Shown: one piece after another, positions 23,915 through 25,992 of the stretch
Layout of the letters: each line of letters starts with the position of its first letter
Numbering within the stretch: position 1 is the stretch's first letter
From: a virus
Length of the DNA: 25,992 bases
Virus record (IMG/VR): IMGVR_UViG_3300045286_000013
Span: 1-25,992 of that record
Reading direction: 5' to 3' (one strand)
The notes under the pieces: generated by a model
What the model was told of the DNA's origin: nothing
The model's database searches: none
What the model saw: only the letters and a program-made list of their open reading frames with translations
Position numbers and translations under genes: made by a program

Positions 23915-24156
23915 GCGACCTCCCGCGATTCAATGGCTCCAGCCATCTCATTCATGGCATCGTGCAGCAACGTTCCAACCCAATCGCGGCTCGGGAAGTT
24001 CGCCCGCGTGACAAGCAGTTCCAGCACCGCGTTGAGGATGGTCACTACCTCCTCCTCTAGCAGCGTGGCTTTGTAGCCGGTGATCGTGTTCGCCAGCTTG
24101 TGCGCATCGGCACAGGCCAGGTCTTGTGCGGCGCGTATCAGTTCAGAGTGTGTCAT
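23911..24156 (-). CDS. First gene of the minus-strand operon, small helical protein
   Basis: The 81-residue product is helical: HSELIRAAQDLACADAHKLA, then TLLEEEVVTILNAVLELLVT, then WVGTLLHDAMNEMAGAIES. It is the first gene after the divergent control region, with GGAA eight bases before ATG 24156. No helix-turn-helix is obvious, so it does not look like the missing repressor. Function unknown. Confidence 0.65.
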   Translation of the reverse strand: MTHSELIRAAQDLACADAHKLANTITGYKATLLEEEVVTILNAVLELLVTRANFPSRDWVGTLLHDAMNEMAGAIESREVA

Positions 24157-24196
24157 TGCGTCGGTTCCAGGGTGTACGCCTCATTGGCGTGAATGA

Positions 24197-24225
24197 ACTG
24201 TAGACTAGCTTTTGCATCGCTGCAA
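24197..24225 (-). promoter_or_regulatory. Candidate leftward early promoter
   Basis: Read on the minus strand, TTGCAG (24225-24220) and TACAGT (24202-24197) are spaced by 17 bp. The -35 matches 3 of 6 and the -10 matches 4 of 6, so it is weak on sequence alone. The -35 hexamer lies within the first operator-like palindrome, so a bound repressor would block it. Expected start near 24190, about 34 bases upstream of the first gene. Confidence 0.4.
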
Positions 24226-24246
24226 GTGGTTTTTGCATCTTTACAA
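24212..24246. promoter_or_regulatory. Two operator-like palindromes, O1 and O2
   Basis: O1 at 24212-24225 is TTGCATCGCTGCAA, a perfect 5-bp inverted repeat around TCGC. O2 at 24233-24246 is TTGCATCTTTACAA, the same left half with one change in the right half. Their starts are 21 bp apart, two turns of DNA, so bound dimers would sit on one face. They overlap the candidate divergent promoters. This is the usual arrangement of Cro/CI operators; the Cro-like gene follows at 24292. Confidence 0.55.
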
Positions 24247-24256
24247 AGTAACAGTC

Positions 24257-24285
24257 TTGCTATGCACTTGCGGCGCGGCTAAAGT
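24257..24285 (+). promoter_or_regulatory. Candidate rightward promoter, possibly for a leaderless cro message
   Basis: TTGCTA (24257-24262) and TAAAGT (24280-24285) are spaced by 17 bp, each matching 4 of 6. The predicted start is near 24292, the A of the ATG, and no ribosome-binding site precedes that ATG. An alternative upstream pair (TTTACA at 24240 and TATGCA at 24261, spacing 15) is possible and would give a leader of about 20 nt. Confidence 0.35.
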
Positions 24286-24291
24286 AGCGGC

Positions 24292-24459
24292 ATGACTACA
24301 AACGATGCTATCAAGCTCGCTGGCTCACGGGATGCGCTGGCGCGTCTGCTTGGCGTAGCGACGATTACCACTTATCGCTGGAAGCCTAGTCCGCCCCGAG
24401 CAAGGATGTATCAGCTAGAAGTGCTCAGGCCGGAGTGGTTCAAGAAGGGGACTCAATGA
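24292..24459 (+). CDS. Cro-like small DNA-binding repressor
   Basis: This 55-residue gene begins TTNDAIKLAGSRDALARLLG, followed by VATITTYRWK, a short helix-turn-helix of the Cro/YdaS type in which the recognition helix ends with the TxYRW motif. PPRARMYQLEVLRPEWF forms the C-terminal part. It is the first rightward gene after the two operators, the place of cro. ATG 24292 has no clear ribosome-binding site, so a leaderless or weakly translated message is possible. It would repress both divergent promoters. No CI partner is visible nearby. It ends by ATGA overlap with the next gene. Confidence 0.75.
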   Translation: MTTNDAIKLAGSRDALARLLGVATITTYRWKPSPPRARMYQLEVLRPEWFKKGTQ

Positions 24460-24650
24460 CCAAGAAGCAAGCTCTATTGGCAGCCCTGCGCCAACGCTGG
24501 CTAACCCCGCTTGAGGCGGCCCAGCAGGTAGGCGTGTTTGCCCTATCTCAGCGCGTGGGCGAGTTCAAGCGCGAGGGGCACAAGATCGTGGATCGCTGGG
24601 TCGATACAGGCGCTGCGCGGGTCAAGGCTTACCACGTGGAGGAAGTATGA
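24456..24650 (+). CDS. Winged-helix phage protein (HTH_39-like)
   Basis: The ATG at 24456 overlaps the stop of the Cro-like gene as ATGA and follows AAGGGG; a GTG at 24435 would overlap more. The 64-residue product, KKQALLAALRQRWLTPLEAAQQ then RVGEFKREGHKI and YHVEEV, matches a compact winged-helix family common in phages and prophages, in which TPLEA is followed by a recognition helix and a hairpin wing. A DNA-binding role in early control is likely. Its last bases are repeated ahead of the gene at 24921. Confidence 0.75.
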   Translation: MTKKQALLAALRQRWLTPLEAAQQVGVFALSQRVGEFKREGHKIVDRWVDTGAARVKAYHVEEV

Positions 24651-24925
24651 CACTTAGCGTTCAAGAGATAACAGATCGGCTAAGGTACGGAGTGGACGGT
24701 CTTGGACCTGATAGCAGTTTTGACCCGGATCGGGCCGATTACATTGAGGCCCTTGAGCGCGCTTTGCATGACATATGCGAGGAATGGGCAGGCGCGGAGT
24801 GCGGGGAGCCCGCCTATGCCCAGGAAGCCTATGCAATAGGACTTGCGAAACGAATGTACGAACTGGCAAAGTCGGCAATTGACAATGGAGTTTGACAAGC
24901 GTTTACCATGTGGAGGAAGCATGAC
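24621..24925 (+). repeat. Repeated gene-junction segment (24621-24652 and 24894-24925)
   Basis: Two segments of 31-32 nt align with about 27 identical positions and one gap. Both contain TTACCAYGTGGAGGAAG followed by ATGAC, so each carries the ribosome-binding site and start codon of the gene that follows. In the first copy the bases also encode the end of the winged-helix protein. Confidence 0.6.
24647..24895 (+). CDS. Small acidic helical early phage protein
   Basis: The 82-residue product starts by ATGA overlap with GTGGAGGAAG upstream. It begins TLSVQEITDRLRYGVDGLG, then ADYIEALERALHDICEEWAG and GLAKRMYELAKSAIDNG, mainly helical and acidic. No motif identifies it. Followed after 25 bases by another small gene. 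Confidence 0.62.
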   Translation: MTLSVQEITDRLRYGVDGLGPDSSFDPDRADYIEALERALHDICEEWAGAECGEPAYAQEAYAIGLAKRMYELAKSAIDNGV

Positions 24926-25121
24926 GACGGACGAGATCATGGGGCTGGCCGATGATTACGCTAATGCGTTGGCCAAGTTTGTATTAGCTGAAGAAGGACG
25001 AGCTTACAGGGGAATAATTGTCGATCTTGACATCGAAGTGCAGCGAGCACGGTCCGATCTGCAAGTAGCCATTGAATCGCTACAAAAGCACTTGACAGCG
25101 GCAAGTGAGCGTGTAGAATGA
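24921..25121 (+). CDS. Small helical early phage protein
   Basis: ATG 24921 follows GGAGGAAGC, an excellent site; an upstream in-frame ATG at 24843 lies within the previous gene and is not preferred. The 66-residue product begins TTDEIMGLADDYANALAKF, then IIVDLDIEVQRARSDLQVAI and ESLQKHLTAASERVE, a helical and mildly acidic protein without a known motif. Its stop overlaps an ATG at 25118, but the frame after that (25118-25408) does not look like protein and crosses the structured RNA. Confidence 0.65.
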   Translation: MTTDEIMGLADDYANALAKFVLAEEGRAYRGIIVDLDIEVQRARSDLQVAIESLQKHLTAASERVE

Positions 25122-25133
25122 CGAACATCAGGT

Positions 25134-25268
25134 ATGGTGCCTGGAGTAGAGCGCTTGCACATGGGGGCCGGAATCAACCGGACGCAATCGCTAGACAGGA
25201 GCCTCCGGGCTCTCACCTCTGTCTAGTGACTGTGGCACCATCCCCCAGTTGCAAGCGCTTTTTCTTTG
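25134..25268 (+). ncRNA. Structured RNA with two crossing long-range helices
   Basis: All pairings were checked by hand. Helix A: 25134-25141 with 25234-25241, 8 bp (ATGGTGCC with GGCACCAT). Helix B: 25150-25159 with 25250-25259, 10 bp (AGCGCTTGCA with TGCAAGCGCT), continued after a 2x2 mismatch by 25162-25167 with 25242-25247, 6 bp (TGGGGG with CCCCCA). A and B cross (A, B, A', B'), so they form a pseudoknot or are alternatives. Hairpin C: 25168-25181, 4 bp with a 6-nt loop. Hairpin D: 25188-25229, 11 bp (one GU), then a 5-bp upper stem capped by cUCCGg, with a 6-nt bulge at 25213-25218. B' is followed by a U-rich run. No tRNA, tmRNA or other family is recognised. It lies between early regulatory genes and the replication block. 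Confidence 0.62.
25148..25268 (+). terminator. Intrinsic terminator formed by helix B of the structured RNA
   Basis: The 3' strand of helix B ends in GCGCTT and is followed by TTTCTTT, giving a long GC-rich stem next to an interrupted U tract at 25259-25268. The loop is large (74 nt) and contains hairpins C and D. A classical terminator has a short loop, so termination may be partial or regulated. It would limit rightward early transcription before the replication genes. Confidence 0.5.
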
Positions 25269-25298
25269 CGCCACCCTTTTCCTCAGGGCGGGTTAGCA

Positions 25299-25484
25299 AT
25301 GGGCCTGTATGGGCTGCACCCAAGAAACACAACCGGCACGTGGCTCACCCTGCGCGACCGGCCCGGCGTGTCAGTGAGCGACCGGGGCAAGCTGGGGTCG
25401 AGTGGTGACATGCAACGCCCAGCCGATAGAGACTCGCTGCCTCCTGGGTGCGCTGGTTGGATCAATCCAATGGGCGAGGGATGA
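25299..25484 (+). CDS. Possible small phage protein
   Basis: A 61-residue frame begins at ATG 25299 after a weak GGCGGG. It is Gly/Pro/Arg/Asp rich (GLYGLHPRNTTGTWLTLRD, ADRDSLPPGCAGWINPMG) with no known motif. Codon choice looks acceptable, but neither the start site nor homology is convincing. A perfect palindrome, TTGGATCAATCCAA, lies inside at 25457-25470, and a 6-bp hairpin (TGACCC/GGGTCA) straddles the end at 25482-25497. The stretch 25269-25523 may otherwise be untranslated leader. Confidence 0.35.
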   Translation: MGLYGLHPRNTTGTWLTLRDRPGVSVSDRGKLGSSGDMQRPADRDSLPPGCAGWINPMGEG

Positions 25485-25523
25485 CCCAAGGGGGTCACCC
25501 TTGCAGAAGTTATGGAGAATACA

Positions 25524-25688
25524 ATGGCAAAAGACTGGAAAGCAGAATATGACAGGCTGCTAGGAGAGAAGAAGCAGCTAGAAGAAGAACTCAGATACTT
25601 GAGGCAAGAGCGTGAGGACAGATTCAGGCGCGAGGAACAGGCGAGGGATAAATTCAAGGAGCTGTTAATCGACGTTCTGGGGCGCTGA
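25524..25688 (+). CDS. Short coiled-coil early protein
   Basis: The 54-residue product starts at ATG 25524 with GGAG seven bases upstream. It is one charged helix (KDWKAEYDRLLGEKKQLEEE, RYLRQEREDRFRREEQARD), ending ELLIDVLGR, with heptad-like Leu/Arg/Glu spacing. It ends one base before the replication-type gene and is probably co-translated. Function unknown. Confidence 0.65.
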   Translation: MAKDWKAEYDRLLGEKKQLEEELRYLRQEREDRFRREEQARDKFKELLIDVLGR

Positions 25689-25689
25689 A

Positions 25690-25992
25690 ATGGAAGGATT
25701 CGATTTATTCTGGAGAGATTGGCCCAGGAATTCGGAGAGATACAGCAGAAAAGGGGCCAAGTCGCAATGCCTGAAAGTGTGGATAACACGGCACCATGAA
25801 TCGCAGAGCGAAACTATCCTCGCTCATATCCGCTGGCTCAAAACTACGGCGGATTGGCTCAAAGAAGGCGGCGCATTTATCCCAGCCCCTTTGGTATATC
25901 TGCACCAGCAGCGGTGGGACGGGGCGGAGATCCCTCCTCCGCCTGAGAAGCTGGAACAGGACCGCGAAGCGATATATCAGGCACAGTTACGT
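25690..25992 (+). CDS. Replication-type phage protein, 3' end outside window
   Basis: The open frame starts at ATG 25690 and runs past the window edge (101 codons seen). FDLFWRDWPRNSERYSRKGA, then CLKVWITRHHES, and AFIPAPLVYLHQQRWDGAEIP match the conserved helical domain of phage replication or helicase-loader proteins (FW..WPR, K.C...W, PLVYLHQ.RW). In many phages this domain stands alone or as the C terminus of a larger replication protein. It is the first clear replication gene on this side of the structured RNA. Confidence 0.7.
   Translation, partial: MEGFDLFWRDWPRNSERYSRKGAKSQCLKVWITRHHESQSETILAHIRWLKTTADWLKEGGAFIPAPLVYLHQQRWDGAEIPPPPEKLEQDREAIYQAQLR

Follow-up and report, generated by a model that had tools for sequence, protein, structure and literature searches.

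RNA-1 is a structured RNA encoded on the + strand of a phage record of 26 kb, which was analysed over its whole length of 25,992 nt (the window). Judged from comparison of sequences, it is probably an autonomous phage RNA gene that has its own promoter, a pseudoknot and a terminator, is moron-like, and would act in trans. Relatives are present in more than 120 viral contigs (aquatic phages) and in one named phage, MW202484; the family and its fold are well supported. RNA-1 is apparently undescribed so far, though it occurs in more than 100 aquatic phage contigs at several unrelated sites. No earlier report was found in the open-access literature, which does not prove its absence from the literature. 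The evidence on RNA-1 is all comparative. The window record encodes a P22-like major head protein and a Cro-like regulator, together with a Sak-like annealing protein and a small protein similar to the C-terminal part of replication initiators. Table 1 gives the features discussed below.

Table 1. Features of RNA-1 and its surroundings (window positions, unless a locus is named).
Feature	Positions	Strand	Basis
Sigma-70 promoter, TTGACA-16-TAGAAT	25092..25119	+	11/12 consensus; directly upstream of RNA-1
RNA-1, extent of the covariance-model match	25125..25270	+	best match of 24000-25992
5′ hairpin, CAGG (25129-25132)/CCTG (25140-25143), 1-nt loop T25133	25129..25143	+	sequence; relatives share geometry
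ATGGTG, helix A 5′ strand within the 5′ hairpin; partner CACCAT	25134..25139	+	sequence
Helix A 5′ strand (A5), ATGGTGCC	25134..25141	+	complementarity persists in relatives while sequence changes
Helix B 5′ strand (B5), AGCGCTTGCA (25150-25159), CA internal loop, TGGGGG (25162-25167)	25150..25167	+	fold, sequence
Small hairpin, CCGG-AATCAA-CCGG	25168..25181	+	fold
Long hairpin, CGCAATCGCTAGACAG/CTGTCTAGTGACTGTG, cUCCGg tip at 25199-25212	25183..25234	+	fold, sequence
Helix A 3′ strand (A3), GGCACCAT	25234..25241	+	sequence
Helix B 3′ strand (B3), CCCCCA (25242-25247) and TGCAAGCGCT (25250-25259), with U-run; intrinsic terminator	25242..25263	+	fold; GGC-TTTTT terminator conserved in family
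RNA-2, second structured non-coding RNA	~25283..25520	+	alignable with its counterpart at six other phage loci
RF02932 as RNA-2	L087 4461-4585; L177 356-474; L186 3442-3558; L198 7363-7492		Rfam match

An earlier note, made from the letters of this DNA, had described two long crossing helices, a cUCCGg hairpin and a terminator. All strands are present where it placed them, with a helix A of 8 bp and a helix B of 10 bp with a 6-bp continuation; a T-rich tail begins at position 25259. None of 3,000 dinucleotide shuffles contains a crossing pair of helices with ≥8 and ≥10 Watson-Crick bp. The nested part alone has a fold energy of -84.1 kcal/mol (z = -7.6) on the + strand, versus -74.1 on the - strand, with G-U pairs accounting for part of the difference. 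The + strand is the better folder, partly via G-U pairs, and thus an RNA read from this strand is favoured. RNA-1 of the window is about 140 nt long, as compared with about 105 nt in most relatives, and its 3′ end is expected at ~25263-25267. The long hairpin is an insertion peculiar to this phage's copy and is absent in other RNA-1 members; the CA/GT internal loop and TTGCACATG of helix B are as in relatives.

The same note had proposed a structured, terminator-ended RNA of the early region and had recognised no known family in it. This is supported; Rfam 15 gives no match at the gathering cut-off over RNA-1, either in the window or in relatives, and a permissive Rfam 15 scan of the window gives chance hits only. 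Searches of named phages yielded no nucleotide match with the window and none with an 18-nt pattern; weak blastn matches in capsid relatives were set aside as chance matches. A coding reading was also rejected, since the spacings between the strands vary without regard to threes.

Relatives, and the promoter described below, go beyond what the earlier note had noticed. Loci L087 and L088 were reached through a neighbouring gene of the window and L089 through the promoter. In all three the RNA sequence past the promoter is largely different, and the order A5-B5-hairpin-A3-B3-U-run is the same. Their loop pairs change in compensation: GGGTGCAAC/GTTGCACCC, GCCTGCAAC/GTTGCAGGC and GGCTGCAAC/GTTGCAGCC. 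A Rep-like gene served as bait for the family search (80 loci). When regions upstream of it were scanned blindly for crossed helices with a U-run at their end, 29 of 81 gave a match, versus 0.67 expected from shuffles, and 16 of these 29 loci were aligned and used to build a covariance model. A pattern scan of IMG/VR, in which portions of the 5′ hairpin and of the terminator stem were specified and A3 was left free, gave at least 120 stretches.

The window displays the crossed order A5-B5-A3-B3-U-run, with A5 inside the 5′ hairpin loop. With filters off, its match to the family covariance model has a score of 14.6 bits (E = 0.017 over 2 kb, E-values of this model being rough), 10 bits above the next match. 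Under default filters RNA-1 of the window is not found by this model because of its 50-nt extra hairpin. The window copy is divergent, and it is assigned to the family by its topology, promoter, synteny and RNA-2. The terminator stem with its internal loop (CTTGCACATG.../...CAGTTGCAAGCGCTTTTT) resembles that of L118 (TTTGCACATG.../...CAGTTGCAAGCGGCTTTTT), and, as in other carriers of the family, there is a promoter at the 5′ stem and an RNA-2 downstream. This likeness of the terminator stem, together with the RNA-2 alignment, the promoter and the synteny, makes it very likely that the window copy belongs to the RNA-1 family. A second, weak match to the model (4.2 bits) lies at 24180-24270, between divergent operons, and is probably due to chance.

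A search for compensatory changes in both helices, which the earlier note had suggested as a check, is strongly positive. In the 16-sequence alignment pairing is 97.3% and 13 pairs are changed on both sides. Among 97 members, 97.5% of the cells in 23 nested pairs are paired and 15 pairs have changes on either side, a level reached in 0 of 500 shuffles. These covariation alignments are partly fitted to the structure; a test of whether each phage carries the complement of its own helix A loop is independent of such fitting. An exact 7-nt complement of the phage's own loop is found in 67 of 71 distinct segments among the IMG/VR matches listed, and when loops are exchanged between phages of this set it is found in 0 of 1,306 combinations. 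In a held-out set the complement is present in all 32 distinct relatives and in 0 of 573 swaps. The four misses of the 71 include cases in which the pattern had started at the wrong place; read from the model alignment, the complement is present in 96 of 97.

The loops number 28 in all. While the outer G-C and T-A pairs do not vary, each of the five inner positions of helix A (3-7) displays several Watson-Crick types. The RNA tree requires a minimum of 46 loop changes, which exceeds the figures for the other helices, and haplotype changes number 47 in helix A as compared with 31 in helix C. This suggests diversifying selection on helix A. The loop pair is best understood as a structural lock, one that is free to change its sequence or is pushed to do so. 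The paired hypervariable strands also offer a ready test of how RNA-1 works, within and between molecules.

Chance, or inverted repeats at the DNA level, might be considered for the window copy alone in view of its divergence. This explanation is nevertheless extremely improbable given the shuffles, the strand-specific G-U pairs and covariation over approximately 100 distinct sequences; for the RNA-1 family it is refuted.

In relatives a 5′ stem of 4-5 bp is followed by one nucleotide and then by the 5′ strand of helix A, which leads without a gap into the 3′ half of the stem. The length of helix A is 6-7 bp, in most cases exactly 7. In classical H-type pseudoknots, 1-2 nt bridge the deep groove of a helix of 6-7 bp. 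The window shares the geometry of the relatives (CAGG, T, ATGGTG, CCTG); six base pairs of helix A are compatible with its hairpin stem, and eight if the stem frays. By its predicted pairing, the 5′ part of RNA-1 with helix A is a classical H-type pseudoknot. The earlier note had argued that helices A and B can hardly form together. Nearly all relatives retain the two helices, however, and a short linker to helix B is also found in members that have both. With the 1-nt-loop geometry, these short-linker members show the steric objection not to be compelling. The longest helix A seen among the relatives, 12 bp (TCACCGCCATGA), occurs in L092 (4595-4694).

The promoter of the window overlaps the end of the preceding small open reading frame, and its hexamers and spacing are identical in L087, L088 and L089. 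The start of transcription is probably near 25126. A promoter that matches 8 or more of the 12 consensus bases is present in 59 of 77 RNA-1 copies, as compared with 14 expected in shuffles. In 50 of the 59 scored copies the -10 element ends 9-10 nt before the GYCGT of the loop, and thus transcription should begin at the first stem. Nine copies display a possible terminator-like hairpin just upstream of RNA-1; in these (L199, L211, L231 and six others) the hairpin, which would serve the preceding gene, is ~20-45 nt upstream and overlaps the promoter of RNA-1 at its -35 region.

RNA-1 is found in several genomic settings. In 51 of 117 loci the setting is an early region with annealing and Rep-like genes nearby, in 11 it is between the scaffold and major head protein genes, and in several others it is near the large terminase gene. 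Across settings RNA-1 is 95-96% identical and the upstream flanks are unrelated; for example, the scaffold/capsid copy of L199 and the copy of L244, located elsewhere, are 95% identical with flanks at background identity. All 26 long contigs have a single copy. In about 1,200 host genomes there is one clear match, on a short contig of a Comamonadaceae MAG; weak matches in host genomes were discarded as plain terminators or as unsupported. RNA-1 thus appears to behave as a moron: single copy, self-contained, moved among unrelated sites and dispensable for its neighbours. This mobility suggests a benefit in trans during infection, e.g. in host takeover, counter-defence or competition between phages.

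The main rival is attenuation into RNA-2, the structured and apparently non-coding RNA, usually of 230-280 nt, that follows RNA-1 in most loci in both early and late settings, including several scaffold/capsid loci. The pseudoknot would then modulate termination and with it expression of RNA-2 and of the replication gene downstream, as in the attenuator or replication switch of the earlier note. No separate promoter is obvious for RNA-2, the 3′ strand of helix A directly abuts that of helix B in the window, and the phage RNA AbiF/RCd22 joins an RNA antitoxin with leaky termination (PMC12373285). But RNA-1 has its own promoter at the 5′ stem, the geometry permits both helices, and no alternative helix competing with helix B was found. 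Contrary to what an attenuator requires, RNA-1 is not always upstream of, or tied to, a replication gene: it is at unrelated sites, the protein genes downstream differ between loci, rep may be upstream (in MW202484 RNA-1 is downstream of rep), and 18 examined Rep loci are without RNA-1. Attenuation is for these reasons rather unlikely. The mobility, the single copy, the unrelated sites and the Rep-like genes that lack RNA-1 fit an autonomous trans-acting gene better than an attenuator of a replication gene. Regulated read-through from RNA-1 into RNA-2 is possible, and a mobile single-copy RNA-1 could act in cis on RNA-2.

In the autonomous gene favoured here, comparison supports a dedicated sigma-70 promoter that would drive the transcript, a predicted H-type pseudoknot in which the loop of the first hairpin is paired to a stretch within the last stem, and a last stem that would form the terminator. 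The pseudoknot would form during transcription, the terminator stem would next close around it, and RNA polymerase would leave a compact RNA with both ends protected. In trans, a partner from host or phage may recognise the RNA as a folded object, and not by way of a fixed antisense seed. Recognition of the fold is favoured because the fold is conserved and none of the exposed segments is, and because targets within the phage's own genome that match the loop are at chance level and thus not enriched.

By lifestyle, though not by structure, the nearest kind of RNA is that of the small phage RNAs PreS/LPR1 of lambda and the moron-site anti-sRNAs AgvB and AsxR of lambdoid prophages; the anti-sRNA genes are at a phage site that tolerates insertions, and PreS is among early genes (PMC4104026, PMC12197685). 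Those RNAs are 51-88 nt long, bind Hfq and have antisense seeds, whereas RNA-1 has a conserved pseudoknot and keeps its fold while its sequence changes. A conserved single-stranded seed of an Hfq-type antisense sRNA was not found in RNA-1, where loops and linkers vary. The U-run of 5-8 in the family is only suggestive with regard to Hfq binding.

The earlier note had also raised a put-like antitermination RNA. The put RNA of HK022 is not known to be ended by a terminator of its own or to be pseudoknotted. RNA-1 recalls it as a structured nascent RNA with two hairpins in an early phage region, and put acts in cis on early transcription (PMC9378689). A put-like cis element is nevertheless hardly credible here, as RNA-1 has a terminator of its own (25250-25263), its own promoter, a pseudoknot and copies between late genes.

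Self-assembly has also to be weighed. The pRNA of phage phi29 is comparable in size and carries complementary loops on a single molecule. Loops of RNA-1 might pair between molecules to give dimers or rings, in the manner of phi29 prohead RNA or of the ROOL and GOLLD cages, with the variable loops separating the assembly of each phage. Both complementary halves are on each molecule, the loops change in pairs, and some copies adjoin scaffold/capsid or terminase genes. ROOL and GOLLD, whose function is unassigned, are likewise structured RNAs of phages and prophages with covarying loop contacts and nearby tRNA sequences, and one covarying contact in ROOL proved to be intermolecular (PMC12286853). 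The 1-nt loop and 7-bp geometry, however, are what an intramolecular H-type pseudoknot needs, and most copies with recognised neighbours are in early regions. A single terminator-bound RNA of 105 nt is moreover far smaller than ROOL or GOLLD (>600 nt, versus ~105-140 nt for RNA-1, which has no Rfam match). Unlike phi29 pRNA, RNA-1 has no three-way junction within a closing helix; its 5′ hairpin is outside the closing helix and its 3′ stem is a terminator. Self-assembly is accordingly judged quite unlikely. A reading in which RNA-1 and RNA-2 form one mobile RNA-only system, the hypervariable loop pair being an identity tag for self-assembly or self-recognition of each phage's own RNA that avoids cross-pairing when competing phages share a cell, is unlikely.

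RNA-2 of the window has a mean column identity of 69% with that of six other phage loci. One class of RNA-2, as read by eye, contains a variable complementary helix of its own that encloses a conserved GTACATSGGTGG core. In the window (25283-25520) and in L190, L196, L211, L221, L225 and L241, the variable helix surrounds a conserved GTACATGGGTGG core and the conserved end is CACCCTTGGGGAA..TATG. Another class, directly downstream of RNA-1, is Rfam RF02932 (Betaproteobacteria-1 RNA), which is thereby given a phage setting; RF02932 is one class of RNA-2 and not RNA-1. That RNA-1 is a mere 5′ part of RF02932 was rejected, since RF02932 copies in bacterial host genomes occur without RNA-1 upstream. 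In L230, L233 and L199, tRNA-like stretches with a T-arm (GGGTTCGAA..CC, CTGGTTCGATTCCAG) are inserted in the RNA-2 region, up to ~300 nt downstream of RNA-1; these recall the tRNAs within GOLLD linkers.
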